This document shows positions 1-15,785 of a DNA stretch of 17,013 nucleotides, piece by piece. The stretch is from Paramuribaculum sp. (GTDB lineage: Bacteria; Bacteroidota; Bacteroidia; Bacteroidales; Muribaculaceae). The stretch spans positions 1-17,013 of the forward strand of contig JAIDKJ010000219.1 in the NCBI GenBank assembly GCA_029051835.1, in the 5' to 3' direction. The position numbers and the translations under genes are program-made. Positions within the stretch are counted from its first letter, which is position 1. Each line of letters starts with the position of its first letter. Below the pieces are notes generated by a model. That model was given only the letters and a program-made list of their open reading frames with translations, had not been told where the DNA came from and made no database searches.

Positions 1-16
1 GCAAAGCACGCCTTGG
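1..16 (+). repeat. Truncated copy of the structured repeat at window edge
   Basis: The first 16 bases are identical to positions 166-181 inside the first full repeat copy and then diverge. This suggests that another copy lies just left of the window and that the repeats form a cluster. The match is short, but it sits directly next to a full copy. Confidence 0.6.
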
Positions 17-123
17 CGAAACCGACGCACACGCCGGACGATGCATCAGGCATCGCAACACGGCAGCCTACACCGGATGGTGCACACGACATAGCCGCCG
101 GGCAGAAACCAACCGCATCGGGA

Positions 124-138
124 GCGGTCGTAGACCGC
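124..138 (+). repeat. 6 bp stem-loop with GTA loop, copy A
   Basis: Stem GCGGTC (124-129), loop GTA, stem GACCGC (133-138). The same hairpin occurs in copy B (1078-1092). In the inverted copy C the two outer base pairs are changed on both sides, keeping the pairing (820-834). Confidence 0.8.
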
Positions 139-203
139 ACACCTTTGTAAACCCCGCCATGGCGGGCAAAGCACGCCTTGGTGGGGTTTACGCATAAGCC
201 ACA

Positions 204-225
204 CGGCATCTTCGTAGAAGAGCCG
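204..225 (+). repeat. Bulged hairpin upstream of the transposase
   Basis: CGGC, a bulged A at 208, TCTTC, loop GTA, GAAGA, GCCG: nine base pairs with one unpaired base. The same 22 bases occur in copy B (1158-1179) and, in opposite orientation, after the transposase stop (732-753). Y1 transposases of the IS200/IS605 and REP-associated groups bind imperfect hairpins of this sort. A role as a binding site here is inference. Confidence 0.7.
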
Positions 226-268
226 CAGGAACAGTTTTACGAAATTACTCACATAATCCTTATATAGC

Positions 269-712
269 ATGAGTCGAGTCAGCTCACTACATCATATCGT
301 TTTCAACACTTACCAAAGAGAACGAACTATCACACTAAGTGAACGACGCACACTTTATGCATTTTTCCACGCCGTAATCACAGCCAACAACTGCAAGACA
401 CTTAGAATCGGCGGAACAGACAATCACGTCCATATCTTAGTCGACCTGCACCCGACAAAAGCCTTATCATGGCTTGTTGGAGAACTAAAAAGATCGTCAA
501 GCGTGTGGATGAAACAAAATGGCACCTTTCGACGTTTTAATGGATGGGCACATGAGTATTTTGCCAATAGCATATCGGCTACCGACAAAGATAGCGTCAT
601 ACACTATATTCAGAATCAGGATCAACACCATCAGAAAATAAGTTTTGAGGATGAAATTAATGAAATATGTCGCAGACATGGGTTTGACTGGAAACCGGAA
701 TATTTCAAATAA
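269..712 (+). CDS. tnpA: IS200-like / REP-associated Y1 transposase
   Basis: A 147-residue single-strand DNA transposase of the Y1 (HUH) superfamily, which cuts and rejoins DNA at hairpins through a 5'-phosphotyrosine link. The HUH motif reads NHVHILVDL, with His53 and His55 as metal ligands. The catalytic tyrosine is probably Tyr113 in HYIQNQDQHH. The family-typical segment GWAHEYFANSIS lies at about 92-103, and FEDEI...HGFDW near the C terminus also fits IS200-type TnpA. Length is normal and the frame is intact. No tnpB lies next to it. The gene is visibly AT-richer than the Sus and purine genes. It is flanked by inverted copies of a structured repeat (A upstream, C downstream), resembling a RAYT in a REPtron more than a plain IS. 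No good TAnnTTTG promoter box was found just upstream. The family call is confident; current activity is unknown. Confidence 0.9.
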   Translation: MSRVSSLHHIVFNTYQRERTITLSERRTLYAFFHAVITANNCKTLRIGGTDNHVHILVDLHPTKALSWLVGELKRSSSVWMKQNGTFRRFNGWAHEYFANSISATDKDSVIHYIQNQDQHHQKISFEDEINEICRRHGFDWKPEYFK

Positions 713-714
713 TC

Positions 715-730
715 AGGAAACACCTTTCCT
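715..730 (+). repeat. Perfect 6 bp hairpin after tnpA stop
   Basis: AGGAAA, loop CACC, TTTCCT, starting two bases after the stop codon of the transposase gene and running directly into inverted repeat copy C. No T-tract follows, so it is a poor intrinsic terminator. It could mark the element's right end or be processed from the transcript. Confidence 0.5.
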
Positions 731-834
731 GCGGCTCTTCTACGAAGATGCCGTTTGCTTCCCCTCCATACCCCACCAAGGCGAGCTACGCACGCCATGG
801 CGGGGCTTACAAAAGTAAATTGGTCTACGACCAA
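727..834 (-). repeat. Inverted, diverged repeat copy C
   Basis: The reverse complement of this stretch aligns over its full length to positions 124-230 of copy A, at roughly three quarters identity by eye. Conserved blocks are the bulged hairpin (732-753), the CGCCTTGGTGGGGT block, the core palindrome CGCCATGGCG (793-802) and the GGTC-GTA-GACC hairpin (820-834). The linkers between them have changed freely. With copy A it brackets tnpA as an inverted pair. Confidence 0.85.
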
Positions 835-981
835 CCACCCCACCACTATTCATTAATACTCAACATTCACAAAACGCCAATCTTACCCCCATATGAATAA
901 TCAAACTCATATACCTATATTACGAATCAACAGAATCGCCAGATGCATATCAACAGACCATTCATCGCCTATTGCTGCAAC

Positions 982-1191
982 CACACGCCGGACGATGCAT
1001 CAGGCATCGCAACACGGCAGCCTACACCGGACGGTGCACACGACATAGCCGCCGGGCAGGAACCAACCGCATCGGGAGCGGTCGTAGACCGCACACCTTT
1101 GTAAACCCCGCCATGGCGGGCAAAGCACACCTTGGTGGGGTCTACGCATAAGCCACACGGCATCTTCGTAGAAGAGCCGCCGGGACAGTTT
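982..1191 (+). repeat. 210 bp structured repeat, copy B
   Basis: Near-identical, gap-free direct copy of 28-237. It contains the 14 bp palindrome at 1107-1120 and the bulged hairpin at 1158-1179. It ends about 23 bp before the DUF4491 start codon, so the last hairpin may lie in that gene's leader. The high identity of A and B against diverged C suggests recent duplication or gene conversion of A and B. Confidence 0.9.
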
Positions 1192-1647: not shown

Positions 1648-3153
1648 TCACTGCGGACGTGTTGCAGCCCAGCCTTCGTTCTGAGCCACGCCGAAGCCGG
1701 CATTGATCTCATCGACAGGTATCGGCAGCAGAAGGTCGCCGAGAGTGACGTTCTCTATGCGCCACTTCACCTCCGGAGCCTGATATGCGGTCAGATTGGT
1801 GACCACATTCCAGCGGCGCAGATCCCACAGGCGGTGTCCCTCCTGGAAGAGTTCGCGGGCACGCTCGTCGCGGATGAAGCTCATCAGACCGGCCTCGTCG
1901 GCGGGCAGATCAGCCGTCGAGGTGATGTCGAGATTGCGCTTGGCCACTACGAGCAGCGCACGGCGGGCGCCATCAAGATCCTTGTTTGACGCGCTGCGCA
2001 GCTTGGACTCGGCCTCGATCAGGAACATTTCGGGAGCATTGATCAGATAGTTGGTGGCCTCGGCGCAGTTGCCGCTCGCGGGCACGCCGAACTTGCCGCC
2101 GCCAAACCACGGCTTGGTATCGCCGTAAGGCACGATCTTCGAACGCTTCTGGTCAGTCCAGTACCAGATGGCGGTGCGGATGTCGTTGTCGCCCATAAGG
2201 CTCACCAGATAGGGGCTCGGACCGTAGCAGTAGGTGGTGAAGAGCGTTCCGCAGGAGTTTGCGCTCCAGTTGGTTTTCTCGTCGAGAGCGAGAGCAAGAA
2301 AGCTCTCGGTATTGGTGTTGTTGCCGGCATACAGAGCCTCGTAGGCCTCCGGATCATAGGTCAGCGTGGCGATGCCCTTGGCGGCAAGAGCGTCGGAGGC
2401 AGCCTGTGCGGCGCCGTCAAAATCCTCAAGCATGAGCTTCACGCGGGCCATGAGGCCGAGAGTAGAAGCCTTGCCGAAGGCAAACATCGAGCGGCGGTCG
2501 CCCACCTCGTTGAATCCGGCCAGAGCCTTGTCGAGATCGGAGAGTATCTGGGCATAGCAGTCGCCCACAGTCGAACGGCTCACGGTCGAACCCGGCTCTA
2601 CGGGCGTATCCACAATCACCACGCCGGGAGTCGAGGAATAGTCCTGACCGTTGACCTTCACCTGATGACCGAACACGTTGGTCATCACGCTCATCGCGTA
2701 GGCTCTAAGCGCATGGGCCTCGGCCTTGGCGCGGATGAGCGTAGCCTTGTCGGCTTCGCCGGCCGACGGTATCAGCTCGTCGCAAGCCTGGATGATGCGG
2801 GCCGAGTTGTCGACCACCTTGTAGCCGTAGGCCCATATATAGAGCATCGAATACTCGGTGTCGAGATAATTGAACTGATACATCGCGTTCTGGTGGCTGT
2901 TGGAGCCGTTCCAGTAGGTGATGTCCGACGCCAGGTCGGGGGTGACTGTAGCGTAGTTGCCGGCGAAATAATACTGGCTGAAACGATAGTAGGTGCCGTT
3001 GAGAGCCAGCTCCACGCGGTTGGCGTTGTCGAGGGCGCCATCCATGTCGACAGCGTCGTAGATGTCGGTGTCGAGGAAGCTGTCGCCGCACGAAGTCATC
3101 GTCATGGCGGCCACCGCAGCCACTCCGAGCGCCTTTGCAAATATATTTTTCAT
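1648..3153 (-). CDS. SusD/RagB-family outer-membrane lipoprotein
   Basis: A 501-residue nutrient-binding lipoprotein that caps its SusC partner. The N terminus MKNIFAKALGVAAVAAMTMTSC is a lipoprotein signal with the lipidated Cys at 22. The N-terminal helical SusD region includes LIRAKAEAHALRAYAMSVMTNVFG at about 140-163. The C-terminal SusD signature EGHRLWDLRRW is at 438-448, and the family ending LLLPIPVDEINAGFGVAQNEGW is intact. Length is normal. It starts 28 bp after the SusC stop in the same orientation, so the two form one operon ending at the bidirectional terminator. No enzyme gene is attached, so the ligand (glycan or peptide) cannot be deduced. Confidence 0.93.
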   Translation of the reverse strand: MKNIFAKALGVAAVAAMTMTSCGDSFLDTDIYDAVDMDGALDNANRVELALNGTYYRFSQYYFAGNYATVTPDLASDITYWNGSNSHQNAMYQFNYLDTEYSMLYIWAYGYKVVDNSARIIQACDELIPSAGEADKATLIRAKAEAHALRAYAMSVMTNVFGHQVKVNGQDYSSTPGVVIVDTPVEPGSTVSRSTVGDCYAQILSDLDKALAGFNEVGDRRSMFAFGKASTLGLMARVKLMLEDFDGAAQAASDALAAKGIATLTYDPEAYEALYAGNNTNTESFLALALDEKTNWSANSCGTLFTTYCYGPSPYLVSLMGDNDIRTAIWYWTDQKRSKIVPYGDTKPWFGGGKFGVPASGNCAEATNYLINAPEMFLIEAESKLRSASNKDLDGARRALLVVAKRNLDITSTADLPADEAGLMSFIRDERARELFQEGHRLWDLRRWNVVTNLTAYQAPEVKWRIENVTLGDLLLPIPVDEINAGFGVAQNEGWAATRPQ

Positions 3154-3181
3154 CTTGTTTAGCTTCTTGTTTTGTTAAAGG

Positions 3182-6100
3182 TTAGAATGTCACCTGTACG
3201 CCACCGGTGAAGGTGAACACCGCCGGATACTGCCATGCGATCTGGCCCGACGAGTATGTCTCGGGGTTGTAGCCGGTGAAGTCGCTTGCAGTCCATGTGT
3301 GTACATTGTCGAAAGTGGTGTAGACACGGAGCTTCTGCACGAAGAAACGGCGCGTGAGCTTGGCCGGCAACGTATAACCGAAAGTGATGTTACTCAGGCG
3401 CAGATAGTTGCCGCTCATCAGCCAGCGGGTGGAGTTGGCCATGGTGTTGTTGGGGTCGCCGTAGATATACTGCGGATATTTGCCGTTGGGGTTCTCGGGA
3501 GTCCAGGAGCCGGTCACAACCTTTTCGAGCGGTGTGCGCATGTCCATGCCCCAGCCGGTGAACTTGTGGCCCGAATCATACACCTTGCCGCCCAGACGGT
3601 AGTTGAACTGCATCGAAGCGTCGAAGCCGTAGGCGTTGGCCGAGAAGCCGAATGCGCCGAACACCTTGGGATCGGCCGAGCCGACATAGCGCTTGCCTGC
3701 CTCGAAATAGTTTTCGGTCAGCTCGTCGCCTTCAGTTCCCTTGTAGTAGAGAGCCTTGCCGTTTTCAGGATTGACACCCGCATACTTGGGCATGTAGAAC
3801 TGACGGTAGGGATGACCCTCCTCGATGATAGTGTAGGTGCTCTCCACAGAACCGTCGGCGAGCTTTATCACCTCGTTGCGGTTCCATGTGATATTAGCGA
3901 ACACGTTGACAAGCACGTCGTTGGTGTAGAATGCGGTGCCGTTGACGCCAAACTCTATACCGCGGTTGCGGATCTTGCCGATGTTCTTGTACCACGAGCC
4001 GAGGCCTGTCGTATAGGAGAGGGGCACCGAATAGAGTGCGTCGGAGGTGTCTTCGTTGTAGTAGTCAAACGTGAAGTGCACGCGGTTGAGCAGCGACAGG
4101 TCGAAACCTACGTCGAACTTGCGCGATGTTTCCCACGACAGGTCGGGATTGGCCACCTGCGAGGGCACCATGCCGGGCTTACCGGCGTAGTTGAAGCCGA
4201 GCTTGTAGAAGCCGCGGGCGGCATATACCGAGCCGAGGCTCTGGTTGCCCACCGTACCGTAGCTCGCGCGCAGTGCGGCGTTGGTCAGCAGACGGTTGCC
4301 CTTGAGCCACTCCTCCTGAGTCAGGCGCCACTTGCCGCCGACCGACCAGAAGTTGCCCCAGCGCTTGTCGTTGCCGAATATCGAGCTGCCGTCGCGACGG
4401 AACGATGCCGAGAGATAGTAGCGGTTGTCGTAGCTGTAGTGGAAGTCGCCGAAATATGATGCCAGACGGCTCTGCTCCTTGTAATAGGAGCTGTCGCCCC
4501 ACGATCCGGCGGTGCTGAGATCGCGCATGCCGTCGGCGGCGAAGGGGAAGTCCTGACCCGAGTAGTACTCCTGCCAGTAAGTGCGGCGCATCATCTCCTG
4601 GCCCAGAAGCAGGTTGATGGTGTGCTTGCTGCCGAAGGTGTAGTCCCATCCGAGGGTATTGGTCCACGTGAGGGTTGTAGTGTTGGCGTTATACTGCTGT
4701 CCGAGGCCGTTGTAGTCCTGACCCTGCGGATTGGTGATGGCGCTCCAGTACTGATACTGGCGCTGTCCCATGATGTTGACGCCGAAGTTGGTCTTGGCCC
4801 AGATGCCCTTGCCGAAATCCACGCGCAGCCAGGGATTGGCGTTGATGGTCTGGTTGTTGATCTGGTTGAGGTCGCCCACCTTCGGATCCATTACAGCCAG
4901 AGGGTTGTACGACACGGGGTTCCACTCCCACTTGCCGTCGACCTCCACACGCGTGGGATCAAACGGGGTCATCGAGCTGATGGCGCCGGTCATCGGGGCG
5001 GCCATGCTGCCGGAGGTCGACTGCGAGGTCGACTGGTTGTCGGTGTAGCTGTACTGCGAGTTGAGTCCCACGGTGAGGAACTTATATTTCGAGTCGAGGT
5101 TGATGCGGCCCGAATAGCGGGTGTTGCTCGAACCGATCATCAGACCGTCGGTGCTGTTGTAGCCGAGGCTCACATAGTAGTTGGTCTGGCTGACGGTGCC
5201 GTTGAATGCCAGATTGTAGTCCTGATAATAGGGCTTGCGGGTGATGGCTTTCACCCAGTCGGTCGAGGTCTTGCCGTCCCATCCGAAATACTGGTCGGTG
5301 AGAAACTCGCGGGCTTCCTGAACATTGTCGAAGTCGCCCGACGCCACTACGCCCTGGCTTATGAGGCTCATCATCTGCTCCGAGTTGGCAAACTTCATAT
5401 TGTTGTTGGCCATAGAAGAGAAGCCCTGACGGGTTTCGAATGTCACGTTAAGACGGCTCTGACCGCCCTTTTTGGTGGTGATCACCACCACGCCGTTGGC
5501 CGCACGCGATCCGTAGATGGCCGTAGCGGCGGCATCCTTCAGCACTGTGACGCTCTCGATGTCGGCAGGATTGTAGGCCGCCATCGGGTCGAAGTAGCTG
5601 TTGGATGACGACGACATGTCGTCGTAGTCGGAATTGACAGGCACGCCGTCGATCACGTAGAGAGGCTGCGAGGAGCTGCTGAGCGAGCCCATGCCGCGAA
5701 CGTAGACCGAACCCCACTGGCCGGGAGACGAGGTGGAGTTGTTATACTGGAAACCGGTCACCGTGCCTTCGAGCGATTTCACGAAGTTGGCGTCGCTCTT
5801 GCGGTCGACCACATCGCCGTCGACCACCGATGCCGCGCCGGTGAAGGCAGCCTTGCGGGTCGCGCCGTAGCCGGTCACCACCACTTCGTCGAGCATCAGC
5901 TCGTCGCTCTCCATCACGATACGGACATCGGGCTTCACGGCCACTTCCACAGGAAGCATGCCTACGTAAGATACCGTGAGGCGCTTCACGTCGGCGGGCA
6001 CCGTCAGACGGAATTTGCCGTCGATGTCGGTCTGAGTGCCGATCGAAGTGCCTTTTGCCTTGACTGTGGCTCCCACCACCGGCTCATCGTCGGCAGTGAC

Positions 6101-6187
6101 TACCACGCCACGCACATTGACCGTCTGGGCCGATGCGCCGATAGCTATGGATGCCACCATCATAAGTAATAAAAACAGCTTTTTCAT
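3182..6187 (-). CDS. SusC/RagA-family TonB-dependent receptor
   Basis: A 1001-residue outer-membrane importer powered by TonB. The signal peptide MKKLFLLLMMVASIAIGASA is probably cleaved before Gln21. A carboxypeptidase-regulatory-like Ig domain spans about 24-95 (VRGVVVTADDEPVVGATV, IDGKFRLTV). The SusC signature LDEVVVTGYGATRKAAFTGA follows at 99-118. The plug domain, about 118-242, contains VYVRGMGSLSSSSQPLYVIDGVPV and DAAATAIYGSRAANGVVVITTKKGG. The remainder is beta-barrel and ends FTGGVQVTF with the expected terminal Phe. It is first in the operon with susD. The roughly 320 bp upstream leader carries a G-run motif shared with the other Sus operon. Length is ordinary for SusC and no frameshift is seen. 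Confidence 0.94.
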   Translation of the reverse strand: MKKLFLLLMMVASIAIGASAQTVNVRGVVVTADDEPVVGATVKAKGTSIGTQTDIDGKFRLTVPADVKRLTVSYVGMLPVEVAVKPDVRIVMESDELMLDEVVVTGYGATRKAAFTGAASVVDGDVVDRKSDANFVKSLEGTVTGFQYNNSTSSPGQWGSVYVRGMGSLSSSSQPLYVIDGVPVNSDYDDMSSSSNSYFDPMAAYNPADIESVTVLKDAAATAIYGSRAANGVVVITTKKGGQSRLNVTFETRQGFSSMANNNMKFANSEQMMSLISQGVVASGDFDNVQEAREFLTDQYFGWDGKTSTDWVKAITRKPYYQDYNLAFNGTVSQTNYYVSLGYNSTDGLMIGSSNTRYSGRINLDSKYKFLTVGLNSQYSYTDNQSTSQSTSGSMAAPMTGAISSMTPFDPTRVEVDGKWEWNPVSYNPLAVMDPKVGDLNQINNQTINANPWLRVDFGKGIWAKTNFGVNIMGQRQYQYWSAITNPQGQDYNGLGQQYNANTTTLTWTNTLGWDYTFGSKHTINLLLGQEMMRRTYWQEYYSGQDFPFAADGMRDLSTAGSWGDSSYYKEQSRLASYFGDFHYSYDNRYYLSASFRRDGSSIFGNDKRWGNFWSVGGKWRLTQEEWLKGNRLLTNAALRASYGTVGNQSLGSVYAARGFYKLGFNYAGKPGMVPSQVANPDLSWETSRKFDVGFDLSLLNRVHFTFDYYNEDTSDALYSVPLSYTTGLGSWYKNIGKIRNRGIEFGVNGTAFYTNDVLVNVFANITWNRNEVIKLADGSVESTYTIIEEGHPYRQFYMPKYAGVNPENGKALYYKGTEGDELTENYFEAGKRYVGSADPKVFGAFGFSANAYGFDASMQFNYRLGGKVYDSGHKFTGWGMDMRTPLEKVVTGSWTPENPNGKYPQYIYGDPNNTMANSTRWLMSGNYLRLSNITFGYTLPAKLTRRFFVQKLRVYTTFDNVHTWTASDFTGYNPETYSSGQIAWQYPAVFTFTGGVQVTF

Positions 6188-10586: not shown

Positions 10587-12392
10587 TCAATAGCCGGGGT
10601 TCTGCTCGAGCAGCGGGTCAGCACCGAGAGTGCTGTTGTCGATCGGCCAGAGGAGCTTGTGAGCTTCCTGAGCTGTCAGAACAGGCACAGAGGTCACTAC
10701 AGCCGAGCCATCGTTTTCCACCATCCATGCGTTGTCCACCGGATTCAGGCCATAACCTATGCAGCCCTGCGGCTGGAACACGAGGTGATCGGTCTGCGCA
10801 CCATCCTTGACCAGAGTCAGGCGGCGGAGATCCCACCAGCGGTGACCTTCCATGTAGAACTCCTTGTCGTACTCCTTCAGGAGAGCCACTTCATTGTCAG
10901 CGAACGAAGAGGGAATGAAGCCATGCACGGCAGCATCGTAATTCGCACCATAAGCGCGCTTGCGAACGATGTCGATATTGTTCTTCAGACCGTTTTTGTC
11001 GTCAAGATAGTTGCAGCACTCTGCAAGTTTCAGGTGAGCGTCGGCCAGACGGTAGATAGGCACATCCACCTTAAACTGGTAGTAGTTGGAACCGGCGATG
11101 ATCGACGGGCGGAACTTGATGACGAAGCATCCTGCGAGCTTATAGTCGTGCGGATTAAAGCTATTCAGCATCAAGGTGTTGGTTCCACGATCAGCATCAG
11201 TGAGATGGTACTGGGGATAGAAAGCATCACCACGGCTGTCGGCTTCATCGAAGTGATAGTAAAGCGCATTCTTATACAGATAACGCATTACGCCGAAGTT
11301 GGCCTTGTCCCACACCTTGCTTGTACGCTGCGTCAGCTTGCCATCCTTCTCCTCACACCAGCGACCGAAACGGTAGGCCTTACCGCTGATCTTGCCCCAG
11401 CCGTCGTCGGCCATGGTCGACCAGTAGTTGTTGCCGGCCGCACCGGTAGTACGCGACCACAGGAAGTTGGTTTCAGGCGAGGCATAGTAAACGCCGTCCT
11501 CTTCCGACGAGTAGCAGACAGAGAAGATCGCCTCCTTATTGTGCGACGAAGTCCAGATGCTGTAGAAATCCGACTGAAGAGCGAATCCGTAATTACCGAT
11601 TACATTTTCGAAATATCCCTTGGCGGTCTGAATGTCGGATGTTCCACCGGCGGCATGGTCGCCTGTAGCCACCTTGGCGCTCCAGAGATAAACCTCGCCT
11701 GCAAGCATTTCAGATGCAGCTTTGCTCCAGTAATAGTCCTTTTTATTGGATTTGAACACGTAGTTTGACTCATTGAAGAGCTCGATCGACTTCTTCACGT
11801 CATCCTTGATGAAGTTGAGAGTTTCCTCGGCTGTAGCACGCGCCATGTAGAGCTTCTCGGGATCATATTCGCCGAGGAGCACGTCGGGCACAGTACGCAG
11901 AGGCACACCGCCATACATCTTGTACATCTGGAAGTAGCAGTAGGCACGCTGACCATAAGCCATAGCCATGAGTCCCTTGCGGGTATCCTCATCGAGAATC
12001 TCCACGCCCTCGTTCTCACAGCGATAGAGCACTTCGTTGTAGTTGGCGATCATACCGTGCCATCCGCCGAAATTGGAGAACTGGGGATGCGACACATCGA
12101 CCACCTGCTGGATAACGTCGGAGTCGGCTGTACCCGAACCGTCGATAGTCGACAGCGTGAAGATACCCGAGCGAAGTTCACCGGCAGAGAACATTACCTG
12201 ATAGGTAAAACCACGGAACTGATTGGCGAGTGCTATCTGGTTGCCCTCGAATTCAGTCTTTGTTTTCCAGAAAGTCTCAGGCACATACCAGTCCTGGGGC
12301 TTCAGATCCAGTTCGTTAGCGCACGACATGTACACCATACCCGTGCCGGCAACGATGGATCCGAGAAGTATTTTGCTGATTATATTTTTCAT
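10587..12392 (-). CDS. SusD/RagB-family lipoprotein (second locus)
   Basis: A 601-residue surface nutrient-binding lipoprotein, larger than the other SusD here. The lipoprotein signal MKNIISKILLGSIVAGTGMVYMSC has the lipidated Cys at 24. The SusD N-terminal helical region includes LMAMAYGQRAYCYFQMYKMYGGVPLRTV at about 141-168. The C-terminal signature EGHRWWDLRR is at 515-524, followed by an acceptable family ending (LLWPIDNSTLGADPLLEQNPGY). The extra length is mainly in the middle, rich in Trp and Tyr, as expected in the ligand-binding region. It starts 21 bp after the SusC stop and is last in the operon before a strong terminator. The two SusD proteins are clearly not close duplicates. The substrate is unknown. 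Confidence 0.93.
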   Translation of the reverse strand: MKNIISKILLGSIVAGTGMVYMSCANELDLKPQDWYVPETFWKTKTEFEGNQIALANQFRGFTYQVMFSAGELRSGIFTLSTIDGSGTADSDVIQQVVDVSHPQFSNFGGWHGMIANYNEVLYRCENEGVEILDEDTRKGLMAMAYGQRAYCYFQMYKMYGGVPLRTVPDVLLGEYDPEKLYMARATAEETLNFIKDDVKKSIELFNESNYVFKSNKKDYYWSKAASEMLAGEVYLWSAKVATGDHAAGGTSDIQTAKGYFENVIGNYGFALQSDFYSIWTSSHNKEAIFSVCYSSEEDGVYYASPETNFLWSRTTGAAGNNYWSTMADDGWGKISGKAYRFGRWCEEKDGKLTQRTSKVWDKANFGVMRYLYKNALYYHFDEADSRGDAFYPQYHLTDADRGTNTLMLNSFNPHDYKLAGCFVIKFRPSIIAGSNYYQFKVDVPIYRLADAHLKLAECCNYLDDKNGLKNNIDIVRKRAYGANYDAAVHGFIPSSFADNEVALLKEYDKEFYMEGHRWWDLRRLTLVKDGAQTDHLVFQPQGCIGYGLNPVDNAWMVENDGSAVVTSVPVLTAQEAHKLLWPIDNSTLGADPLLEQNPGY

Positions 12393-12413
12393 TGTTTTGA
12401 TTCTGTTGATGGT

Positions 12414-15400
12414 TTAGAAAGATACGTTCACGCCGAACACAATGGTGCGGGGAAGGTTGTACGTACCGCCGTTACCTGCTGTATTACCGCTCCAGTAAGT
12501 GGTGTTGTCAGGCAGAGGTATTGTGCAGCTCTTGAGATAACCGAGGTTCTGTCCGGTAACGCTCAGAGTCAGACCCTGGCTGGCGAACTTCTTGCAGATG
12601 CTTGCGGGAAGCTGATAGCTGAGCGAGAGCTCGCGGCAAGCGAGGTAGGCTCCGTTCTGACACATCAGCTCGTTGGTACGGATATAGTTGTCGGTACCAT
12701 ACTGCGATGCCCATGCCACACGGGGATACTTGGCGTTGGGGTTGTCGACAGTCCATGTATCGCGGATCTCCTTGGGGAACGCCATAGCTCCCTGTCCTTC
12801 GCCGAGCCAGAATGCCATGTTCGAGTCATATACCTGGAATCCCCAGCCCATGTCGAAGCGGGCGTAGAGGCTCAGACCCTTCCACGACAGTGTGGTGTTG
12901 AAACCACCGCTCCATCGAGCGTCGCGGTGACCGATGACCTTACGGTCCTTTGCCTCGATCTTGTTGTCGCCGTTGCGATCCTCATAGATAAGGTCGCCGG
13001 GCATCAGACGAACCATATTGGAAGCCGCGTAACCAAGAGCTACCAGACGCTGACGACCCGATTCGTTGGCGTAAACCACAGCACCGTTAGAGGGAGCGAT
13101 GTCAATATAGTCGCCGAGGGCGTCGATGTCAGCCTGAGTGCGTGCCATCTTCACCACGCCGTAGCCCACCTGCTTGTAGGGATTCTGACCTTCCTGATAG
13201 CCGCCGATCCATGTGGTTTCGTCACCGTTGCCGGTCCACACTTCCACGCCGCCCTGACGGTTGTTGGCCAGGCCGTTTTCAGGAAGCTTCACGATCTTGT
13301 TGTCATTGAGAGTGAGGTTGGCGCCGAGAGTCCACTGGAAGTCCTTCAGACGGAGCAGAGTGGCGTTGATGTCGATCTCAAGACCCTGGTTGCGATATTT
13401 ACCGTTGTTGTATGTAACGGCAGAGAAGCCGGTTGTCGGGGGGAGCGACAGAGGAGCATACTTGTCGGATGTCGTGCGGTTGTAATACACGAGCGAGAGG
13501 TTGAAGCGGTTCTGGAGGAAACCGAAGTCAACGCCCACCTCACCTGTTGTAGCTGTTTCCCAGCTCAGGTTGGGATTGGGAAGCGTAGAGATGCGATAAC
13601 CCTTCTCACCGTCGTACTGGTAAGCGCTGTATGCGCCGCGGAGAGTGTAATAACCGAGGCGGTCACGGTTGATGATAGCGTTGCTACCATACGATCCGCG
13701 CACTTTGGCATAGTTGATAAATCCAAGTCCGGGAGTGTTTTTCCAGAAATCTTCCGACGAAACAACCCAGCCGGCGCTCACACCGGGGAAGAAGCCCCAA
13801 CGCTTGTTGAGCAGACGAGAGTATCCGTCCTCACGGAATGTGAAAGCGAGCAGATATTTGCCCATATAGTCATAGCCCACACGTCCGAAGTACGACATCA
13901 GAGCCTCTTCAGCGTGGTTCGATGACATTTCGCGGCTCTCCTGAGTTGTATTGCCAAGCACAGGGAAAGGAGCCGGGCCGTCATAACCGCTGGCGCTGAA
14001 ATCAAGATATTTGCGCTTGTAGAACTCCAGACCGGCCATCGCCTCTACATTATGCTTCTCAGCAAAGGTGCGGTTGAAGTTGGCAACGAGATTGTAGGTC
14101 TGGTCGAAGTAGCGGAGGAAAGAAGCGCTGGTGCTGTAATTGCGTGATACACCGACAGAACCCTCAGGATTGTCTGCACCAGTGTTGTTTGTCACATAGG
14201 CATAGTTCAGAGCCTGTGTATACTGTTCGTTGTAGTACCATGCCATAGTGCCCTTAAGTGTCAGACCGTCGATGATCTTGGCAGTGAGGCTCTGGGTCAT
14301 AGAGAACTTGTCGCTCTGGTAGTCGCGGTCAAATTTGCCCTTGTTGACATTGACGTTCATAGTCGGGTTGCCGGTACCGAACAGTTCATTACCCTCCTCA
14401 TCGCGGTAGCGAACGAACTTGTAGCCGAAGCCACGGTTCATGAAGTAGACGGTGCTGAGCTGCGGCTGGTCGTTGAGCCAGTTGGCGCGAGTGTAGTTAA
14501 ATACCGAATTAGCGGTCAGCCAGTCGTTGAGCTTGTAGTTTCCGGTAAACGCGAAGTTGTAGCGCTTGTAGAAGGTAGTCTTAACAACGCCCTGTGCGTC
14601 ATAATATCCGAGAGAAGCATAATAGCTGCCCCTATCGTTACCACCCGAGAAGCTGACATTGTAATCCTGGGTAACGGTCGGCTTGCGCAGGTTGATGTCA
14701 AGTATATCCTGGTTCCAGTAGAGGATGGTGTTGTCGCTGACGGGGTCAAGCATCTCTTTCCATCCGCCGAGGCCGAGCAGATATTCGGTCTTCTCGTTCT
14801 TCTGAAGGATATTGTAGTTCATGTTGTTCGACCACTCCTGGCGACCGATACCGCCGGGCTGGTTGTTACCGAAAAGCATGGAATTCCACGAAGCTGCATA
14901 GTTGCCGCCGGGAAGCATCCACTCGGTGTTGGTACATGCTGTGCGGTAGTAGTAGAGGTAATCCTCATCGGTACAAGCCTCATAGCCGTTGTTATAGTAA
15001 CCAAGACCCACTTTGGCGCTCAGCGTCACACGACCTGTGCCGCTCTTACCGGCCTTGGTTGTGATCAGGATCACACCGTTGCCTGCACGTGCACCATAAA
15101 GAGCCGTAGCGCCGGCATCCTTCAGGATCTGCATGTCCTCGATGTCGTTGGGGTTGATGTCGCTCATGCTGTCGCGGATATTGCCGTCGACGATCACCAG
15201 AGGCTGGTTGCTGCCGCCGTCATAGTTCGTACCGCCACGCACGGTGATCGAAGGAGTGGCCGAGGGGTTACCGCTGGTCACAGACACCTTCACACCCGAG
15301 ATAGCGCCCACAAGAGCCTGAGCCGGGTTGGCATTGGTACCGACCGTAAGAGTCTTTTCGCTAACTTTGGCGATAGAGTTGGTCACCTTGGCGCGCTTCT

Positions 15401-15785
15401 GTTCTACGCCGTAACCCATCACCACTACCTCGTCGAGGACATTGGAATCCTCCTTCATGACGATAGTCAGAGGAGCACCGTCCCACACTACGGTAACGGG
15501 ATTATAACCTATATAGTTGGCCACAATCTTCTGGCCGGGCTTAACGCCTGAAAGTGTAAATTCGCCGTCGATGTTGGCGGAAGCTGCTATAGTTGTTCCT
15601 TCAACGCGGACTGTTGCACCAACCAGAGGTTCGCCGGTTTCGTCGACAATCGTACCGGTGCATTTACCGTTGGCCTGCTGAGCCTGAGGCAGCGCGCTTT
15701 CGCTGGGTGAGGCTACTGCTGCCATGGGAGCGCATACCGCCATAGCAAGGGCCACACACCAATTTTTTAAGCTGGTATTATTCAT
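12414..15785 (-). CDS. SusC/RagA-family TonB-dependent receptor (second locus)
   Basis: A 1123-residue outer-membrane importer. The signal peptide occupies about residues 1-26 (MNNTSLKNWCVALAMAVCAPMAAVA), followed by a short Gln/Ala/Ser-rich linker. The carboxypeptidase-regulatory-like domain lies at about 41-112 (CTGTIVDETGEPLVGATVRV, NIDGEFTLSG). The SusC signature DEVVVMGYGVEQKRAKVTNS is at 118-137. The plug, about 130-248, includes PSITVRGGTNYDGGSNQPLVIVDG and DAGATALYGARAGNGVILITTKAG. The barrel follows and ends IVFGVNVSF. It has the standard SusC fold but is about 120 residues longer than the other SusC in the window. It lies between the FN3 lipoprotein gene (25 bp gap) and susD (21 bp gap), which supports one transcript and one complex. 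Confidence 0.94.
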   Translation of the reverse strand: MNNTSLKNWCVALAMAVCAPMAAVASPSESALPQAQQANGKCTGTIVDETGEPLVGATVRVEGTTIAASANIDGEFTLSGVKPGQKIVANYIGYNPVTVVWDGAPLTIVMKEDSNVLDEVVVMGYGVEQKRAKVTNSIAKVSEKTLTVGTNANPAQALVGAISGVKVSVTSGNPSATPSITVRGGTNYDGGSNQPLVIVDGNIRDSMSDINPNDIEDMQILKDAGATALYGARAGNGVILITTKAGKSGTGRVTLSAKVGLGYYNNGYEACTDEDYLYYYRTACTNTEWMLPGGNYAASWNSMLFGNNQPGGIGRQEWSNNMNYNILQKNEKTEYLLGLGGWKEMLDPVSDNTILYWNQDILDINLRKPTVTQDYNVSFSGGNDRGSYYASLGYYDAQGVVKTTFYKRYNFAFTGNYKLNDWLTANSVFNYTRANWLNDQPQLSTVYFMNRGFGYKFVRYRDEEGNELFGTGNPTMNVNVNKGKFDRDYQSDKFSMTQSLTAKIIDGLTLKGTMAWYYNEQYTQALNYAYVTNNTGADNPEGSVGVSRNYSTSASFLRYFDQTYNLVANFNRTFAEKHNVEAMAGLEFYKRKYLDFSASGYDGPAPFPVLGNTTQESREMSSNHAEEALMSYFGRVGYDYMGKYLLAFTFREDGYSRLLNKRWGFFPGVSAGWVVSSEDFWKNTPGLGFINYAKVRGSYGSNAIINRDRLGYYTLRGAYSAYQYDGEKGYRISTLPNPNLSWETATTGEVGVDFGFLQNRFNLSLVYYNRTTSDKYAPLSLPPTTGFSAVTYNNGKYRNQGLEIDINATLLRLKDFQWTLGANLTLNDNKIVKLPENGLANNRQGGVEVWTGNGDETTWIGGYQEGQNPYKQVGYGVVKMARTQADIDALGDYIDIAPSNGAVVYANESGRQRLVALGYAASNMVRLMPGDLIYEDRNGDNKIEAKDRKVIGHRDARWSGGFNTTLSWKGLSLYARFDMGWGFQVYDSNMAFWLGEGQGAMAFPKEIRDTWTVDNPNAKYPRVAWASQYGTDNYIRTNELMCQNGAYLACRELSLSYQLPASICKKFASQGLTLSVTGQNLGYLKSCTIPLPDNTTYWSGNTAGNGGTYNLPRTIVFGVNVSF

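Follow-up and report, generated by a model that had tools for sequence, protein, structure and literature searches.

Dispersed three-hairpin repeats with GNA loops bracket a lone subclass 1.2 Y1 transposase gene in a Paramuribaculum genome

Architecture of the tnpA locus

The window analyzed here is the entire 17,013-bp contig JAIDKJ010000219.1 (C134) from a Paramuribaculum sp. draft genome (G000; 485 contigs, 84% complete), and near its start lies a lone gene for a Y1 transposase (tnpA) bracketed by folded repeats (Table 1). The gene sits between a repeat in plus orientation (copy A) and an inverted copy (copy C), with a direct copy (copy B) beyond, which confirms the layout described in an earlier reading made from the letters alone (the sequence-only reading). 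The layout has three REPtron-like traits: the gene is single, palindromic repeats surround it in inverted orientation, and those repeats are dispersed in the genome. In the reading that we consider likely, the locus is REPtron-like, and its enzyme, of TnpAY1 subclass 1.2, moves three-hairpin units one at a time in the form of folded single-stranded DNA (ssDNA).

Copies A (28–237, plus strand) and B (982–1191, plus strand) are 97% identical across 210 nt, and inverted copy C matches A at 81% identity over 108 alignment columns (726–832). The sequence-only reading took the whole 210 bp, with several hairpins, as the repeat; the hairpins stand, resolved here as three, but the dispersed part is approximately the last 117 nt (119–235) and the rest is a local extension. 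Query positions 1 to 77 find matches in A and B alone, both in this genome and among the scored candidates of 100 relatives, and the 210-nt unit is thus a local duplication. A BLAST search locates the repeat at nine places in G000, where the seven matches besides A and B all begin at query position 78 or beyond (one match on contig C393 at 78). Six of the nine places are on contigs C393, C285, and C142, which hold no Y1 match; the repeat is therefore present elsewhere in the genome, a point on which the sequence-only reading had staked its proposal, and these data agree with its suggestion that a distinct family of repeats goes with the protein. The count is a lower bound, because four contigs of this draft have copies at their very ends or close to them.

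Table 1. Features of the tnpA locus in the window
Feature	Coordinates	Strand	Remarks
Probable remnant of another copy of the repeat (H2, second half)	1..18	+	Truncated by contig end; positions 1-40 match 166-205 at 73%; window begins at base 1 of C134
5' extension of copy A, also in copy B	28..118	+	Positions 1-77 unmatched outside A and B
Copy A, dispersed core H1-H2-H3	119..235	+	H1 124-138, loop GTA; H2 147-191; H3 204-225, loop GTA; from folds, 31-copy alignment, and genome copies
tnpA, 147-residue HUH Y1 transposase, TnpAY1 subclass 1.2 type	269..712	+	His53, His55, Tyr113
Copy C, inverted dispersed core	724..838	-	Lies 11 nt past the stop codon; 81% to A; DNA fold z -5.2
5' extension of copy B, counterpart of 28..118	982..1072	+	97% over 210 nt
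Copy B, dispersed core	1073..1189	+	Matching site in G005, which lacks tnpA there, has one repeat in this position

Classification of the transposase

The 147-residue product scores 72.5 bits against PF01797 (cut-off of 23) and 61.9 bits against the IS200 model (cut-off of 55), the latter also matched by 20 of 20 homologues at E ≤ 0.001. The motif YIQNQDQHH at Y113 corresponds to the Y-xxx-Q-xx-HH pattern of subclass 1.2; Tyr113, Gln117, H120, and H121, together with His53 and His55, are invariant in all 20 homologues, and the HUH/Tyr catalytic residues are intact as judged from the sequence. In the part of the classification of Quentin et al. (2018; PMC6006769) available to us, proteins of subclass 1.2 carry the motif Y---Q--HH and a C-terminal domain, have a low copy number, and occur in Cyanobacteria and Bacteroidetes; for repetitive extragenic palindromic (REP) sequences the table enters “no”, which serves there as description and not as a defining criterion. 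The protein studied here is like that subclass in length (147 versus a median of 148 residues), motif, approximately 30 residues beyond the core, low copy number, and host phylum, Bacteroidetes. Its Pfam core ends at residue 117, followed by predicted tail helices at residues 126–137 and 143–146, and a single protein match to tnpA in its own draft genome reflects the low copy number typical of the subclass. A second Y1 gene of G000 (G000:C477:6264-6665; L010, L014, L200) is class 2-like, with 59.3 bits against the model for REP-associated tyrosine transposases (RAYTs), under the cut-off of 80.

We placed the protein in a tree of 55 rows comprising 32 of 92 subclass 1.2 proteins, six IS200-type proteins, and 17 of class 2. 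Class 2 RAYTs are separated from the rest at 98/97 support, with the window protein on the IS200 side, where it falls within a 15-row subclass 1.2 clade (100/97) and outside the clade formed by the six IS200-type rows (100/100). The subclass 1.2 rows together do not make up one clade exclusive of IS200, and a long-branch warning from the tree tool renders the fine placement uncertain. The sequence-only reading had named, as what would undo it, a transposase that groups with ordinary IS200 elements whose ends exclude the repeats; the grouping on the IS200 side is borne out, but membership in the IS200-type clade is not.

The predicted structure (predicted local distance difference test score of 90.5) retrieves IS608 and ISDra2 TnpA first by Foldseek E-value, whereas the E. 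coli RAYT 4er8 gives a higher TM-score (0.63) and a lower root-mean-square deviation (2.8) than these, and the fold therefore does not settle the class. These values put the model as near to 4er8 as to any IS200 TnpA and would suit a classical class 2 RAYT/REP system with large repeats, as would a lone gene in inverted, palindromic, dispersed repeats at a locus stable in its orthologous counterpart in the relative G006. The sequence refutes class 2 membership, leaving a functional likeness: the RAYT model gives 24.6 bits against its cut-off of 80, the protein lies outside the class 2 clade, and its Y-xxx-Q-xx-HH motif is that of another subclass. We thus regard a class 2 system as highly improbable, and the assignment of the protein to the RAYTs in the sequence-only reading does not survive.

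Structure and conservation of the repeat

Copies of approximately 85 nt or longer were retained (33), and removal of two lacking H1 left 31 for alignment, which resolves three hairpins on one strand: a mini-hairpin at either end of the unit (H1 and H3) and a long hairpin between them (H2). Across this alignment 90.7% of 890 cells are paired, with 31 cells altered on both sides of the pair and a covariation score of 0.106 versus 0.045 when shuffled, and either value was reached by none of 500 shuffles. Loop and closing pair together read CGNAG, with a variable N, in 30 of 31 copies for H1, 25 of 31 for H2, and 31 of 31 for H3. Folded as ssDNA and compared with 200 shuffles, copy A gives a z score of −6.5 and copy C −5.2 (no shuffle as good in either case), with −2.7 for copy B (two as good). 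The strand carrying the GNA loops folds better than its complement in all three copies (−35.0 versus −30.8 kcal/mol for A, −27.2 versus −24.0 for C, and −25.4 versus −24.5 for B, a small margin).

DNA with GNA or GNNA loops closed by at least two G–C pairs is described as forming an extraordinarily stable, nuclease-resistant mini-hairpin (PMC4686876), and the C(GNA)G triloop of Hirao, Yoshizawa, and colleagues cited there, in which N is free, is the same as that found in these repeats. The GNA mini-hairpins in the portion of that source available to us are oligonucleotides and parts of aptamers, whereas those described here are natural repeats at transposase genes.

Repeats in related genomes

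BLAST matches to the repeat core are found in three of 34 genomes of the genus, with nine in G000, nine in G006, and 23 in G005, and none in the other 31. Among 101 genomes a close orthologue of tnpA is found in G006 only (88% identity; the next best is 49%), and this genome is apparently that of the type strain Paramuribaculum intestinale DSM 100749, to judge from a match to NZ_PUED01000105.1. G006 keeps the order A–tnpA–C–B plus a partial extra copy, followed by the same 97-residue open reading frame (ORF) and SusD-like gene, and at the matching site of G005, from which tnpA is absent, one solo repeat (88%) immediately precedes the 97-residue ORF. The sole Y1 match of G005 is a different gene (34%), and pieces of the repeat family of that gene lie between copies of our family in four of eight pairs examined (L080, L081, L084, L086); in G006, a piece of that other family lies beside a truncated copy of our repeat (L095). 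These observations in G005 and G006 indicate that repeats can stay when the gene is missing and that families mix in mosaic arrays.

Two sites differ between relatives by the presence of repeats: 525 nt with a truncated repeat in G006:C331 correspond to 18 nt in G005:C63, and 969 nt with an inverted pair in G005:C11 correspond to 224 nt without the pair in G000:C151, the edges being diverged in both comparisons. Pair orientation was counted in the listed rows of eight families, excluding copies at the tnpA locus and one overlapping G005 row; neighbors less than 1 kb apart in our family form nine divergent pairs, one convergent pair, and no direct pair.

A covariance-model search returned matches in 18 of 99 genomes of the family (E ≤ 0.001); since the loop letters are built into the model and its E-values are approximate, we do not use this result as evidence on the loops. 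Related three-hairpin repeats recovered by this model include 18 matches in G030, 22 in G146, 18 in G161, and 8 in G128, and those of G030, which has no Y1 gene among the protein matches to tnpA, are possibly orphans.

Survey of subclass 1.2 loci

We assembled 96 Y1 loci, made up of 90 of 111 protein matches and six others; the 21 matches left out are mostly weak, and a few lie at contig starts. The Y-xxx-Q-xx-HH motif is present in 92, and 89 of these have the flanks of at least 100 nt used for per-locus tests. Comparing 300-nt flanks at a threshold of 35 bits, we find an inverted match between the two flanks of the same gene at 55 of 89 loci versus 24 of 7,832 cross pairs. GNA hairpins with any closing pair are found on the gene-facing strand on both sides of 42 loci, on one side of 21, and on neither side of 26, versus 6, 28, and 55, respectively, on the opposite strand. 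Among perfect triloop hairpins, C(GNA)G accounts for 125 of 377 on the gene-facing strand and 32 of 377 on the other; at a greater distance from the gene the figures for the two strands are 13 of 189 and 14 of 189, and 20 shuffles give a mean of 0.85. The 125 C(GNA)G hairpins vary in both N (G in 52, T in 36, A in 21, C in 16) and stem (51 different 5-nt stems). These loci display a preference for the loop and a strand polarity.

A comparison set of class-2-type genes was chosen by the motif Y..[NQ]P (22 of 31 loci, L184-L214; eight of the 22 above the RAYT cut-off), and none of its 64 hairpins is C(GNA)G on either strand. Conversely, GT[AG]G lies within 6 nt of the hairpin foot in four of the 125 C(GNA)G hairpins against 2.9 expected, which is chance level; both results further separate the loci studied here from the class 2 systems.

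Specificity was evaluated with 13 upstream repeats concatenated as a single query and searched in their 13 genomes as well as G000 and G006, with candidates limited and counts rough. All 13 genomes are matched, with at least 3 to at least 42 matches each, and among the matches listed each genome is matched by its own part of the query only; G000 and G006 have no match to these 13 repeats from other genomes. Copies away from the gene are present in 10 of the 13 among the matches listed, and a fuller search adds G044 (one short copy) and G089 (three), for 12 of 13. In G040, 25 copies of approximately 105 nt have sharp ends (GGAGCGCC...TTGTGG) and mostly unrelated flanks, and CGNAG is found in 24 of 25 copies for H1 (GGA in 17, GCA in 7) and in 24 of 25 for H3 (GTA in 17, GCA in 6, GGA in 1).

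These results bear on the possibility that the repeats are RNA elements, such as terminators or mRNA stabilizers, or insertion hot spots, on which the protein does not act. The repeats do fold well, the G005 copies persist without the gene, the G058 repeat is found at its gene only, and two of three terminator-like matches in the window fall on copy C, although their total is near that of shuffled sequence (four promoter and three terminator matches against shuffled means of 2.0 and 1.8, a scan not used as evidence). An element indifferent to the protein is nonetheless improbable in view of 13 of 13 repeats matching only the genome of their own gene among the matches listed, the inward strand polarity on both sides of the gene, and loops that are GNA triloops of DNA type. 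GNRA and UNCG are the loops that RNA would favor, and just seven GNRA and two UNCG are found among 151 four-base loops; an RNA tetraloop explanation, with 9 of 151, was rejected.

The survey also bears on whether the locus is an ordinary IS200/IS605 insertion sequence (IS), with the repeats as its end hairpins and the dispersed copies as deletion derivatives that resemble palindrome-associated transposable elements (PATEs) or miniature inverted-repeat transposable elements. Such an origin would agree with the score above the IS200 cut-off, the class 1 side of the tree, the best E-values for IS608 and ISDra2, and an H1-H2-H3 unit with two end hairpins on one strand, as derivatives would have; we nevertheless judge it unlikely. 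The genome has a single gene copy and no near-identical whole-element copies; paralogues in six other genomes are mostly 26–65% identical, one 91% pair in G042 (approximately 3 kb apart) excepted, and are thus mostly diverged genes and not recent IS copies. Moreover, the gene lies outside the repeated unit and its product outside the IS200-type clade. Both ends of IS200/IS605 elements are on one strand, whereas the hairpins that flank the gene here face inward on opposite strands, as seen from the inversion of C relative to A and from the GNA strand across loci.

Two further sets of flanks were noted. Homologues at 34–37% identity in gammaproteobacterial and planctomycete drafts (L098, L100, L101, L102, and L103) also lie between flanks rich in hairpins, and T(GAA)A or C(GAA)G loops occur in some of these; the homologue L021 (G049:C6) is flanked on both sides by long arrays of approximately 20-nt direct repeats (TTCGAAGACGCTACTGTGG-like).

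Proposed mechanism and relation to known systems

In the REPtron-like reading, the repeat is a compact nonautonomous unit with H1-H2-H3 on one strand and C(GNA)G loops, and each unit would resemble an IS200/IS605 element reduced to its two ends, that is, two terminal mini-hairpins on the same strand. The enzyme would recognize the two mini-hairpins when this strand becomes single-stranded, for example in the lagging-strand template, much as IS608 and ISDra2 TnpA read left and right end hairpins. The IS608 transposase is a dimer, and a dimeric HUH enzyme here could hold both mini-hairpins, bind and cut the DNA, and excise or copy the unit from ssDNA; units would then land elsewhere and build up there, alone or in pairs. 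Because the flanking repeats face the gene from opposite strands, the gene would not travel as the unit. Dispersal, sharp ends, and the two presence/absence sites, which are not base-exact, speak for movement. A role of the loop in recognition may be expected from TnpAREP, for which loop letters are described as able to decide recognition, an example being a G in the REP loop of Stenotrophomonas (PMC8266576). Extended to subclass 1.2 Y1 enzymes as a group, we lean slightly toward REP-like systems on the IS200 side that evolved independently of the class 2 RAYTs, each with private three-hairpin units recognized via C(GNA)G triloops whose stems are free to vary.

Several results weigh against the REPtron-like reading. 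Two of five covariation measures are not above shuffles (82 of 500 for both-side-changed pairs and 138 of 500 for further pair types); in H3, no pair covaries and 15 of 29 copies have a stem mismatch. G005 holds its 23 matches without the cognate gene, and the G058 repeat lacks dispersed copies. Three repeat copies overlap long ORFs, which have no Pfam match. At least five G040 copies have longer flanks in common and hence cannot all count as independent insertions, and pair orientation varies by family, with four convergent and 11 direct pairs in G040. In the presence/absence comparisons we looked for an empty site exact to the base and accompanied by a target duplication, and for a precise target site, and found neither. 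Across the survey, an inverted flank match of 35 bits is absent at 34 of 89 loci, GNA hairpins are lacking on both flanks at 26 of 89, C(GNA)G hairpins are confined to 51 of 92, and other loops are found as well, including T(GAA)A (39), AAA, and AAC.

Among known systems, class 2 TnpAREP/RAYT enzymes with their REP, BIME, and REPIN sequences (E. coli, Stenotrophomonas) share the inverted palindromic bracket, a repeat family per gene, dispersal often in pairs, and HUH/Tyr chemistry. They differ in protein class, in the GT[AG]G foot, in the loops, which are C(GNA)G here, and in unit size, a class 2 REP being one hairpin of 21–65 nt and the unit here three hairpins in approximately 105–120 nt. 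IS200/IS605 elements (IS608, ISDra2) and their PATE derivatives are the nearest solved relatives by sequence and Foldseek E-value and likewise have, in each unit, a pair of end hairpins on the same strand; unlike in those elements, the gene here is outside the unit and single copy, with flanking repeats on opposite strands. No tnpB was recognized in the ORF list of the window, on which no tnpB model was run and where the contig starts just before copy A. Subclass 2.6 of Bacteroidetes shares the phylum and is described as having atypical flanking structures with copies elsewhere in the genome, but its proteins are of class 2, with a YIH[QN]NP motif and a longer core, according to the part of PMC6006769 available to us.

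In class 2, Y1 genes accompanied by private, dispersed, palindromic repeats are already known. The features that appear new are the occurrence of such repeats at subclass 1.2 genes, a unit of three hairpins, and a preference for GNA loops, for none of which we found a report in the open-licence literature, a body that leaves most subscription journals uncovered. Nor did we find in that literature GNA mini-hairpins reported as a transposase recognition code. Subclass 1.2 is listed without REPs in the available part of the main classification (PMC6006769), whereas many such genes here have private, dispersed, structured repeats, and this enzyme group thus gains a repeat partner. Gut Bacteroidales contain many diverged enzyme–repeat pairs, of which one apparently belongs to a named type strain; such pairs could account for one kind of structured repeat found there, and they bear on how frequently transposases are turned into repeat-maintaining genes. 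The loop pattern makes a clear and cheap prediction on recognition of folded ssDNA, which, if true, would represent a natural use of an extraordinarily stable DNA mini-hairpin as a DNA-specific structural code.

Other features of the window

An Rfam scan of the window returned zero families at the gathering score. Downstream of the tnpA locus, the ORF list contains, by eye, two SusC/SusD-like pairs on the minus strand, at 1648–6187 and 10587–15785.
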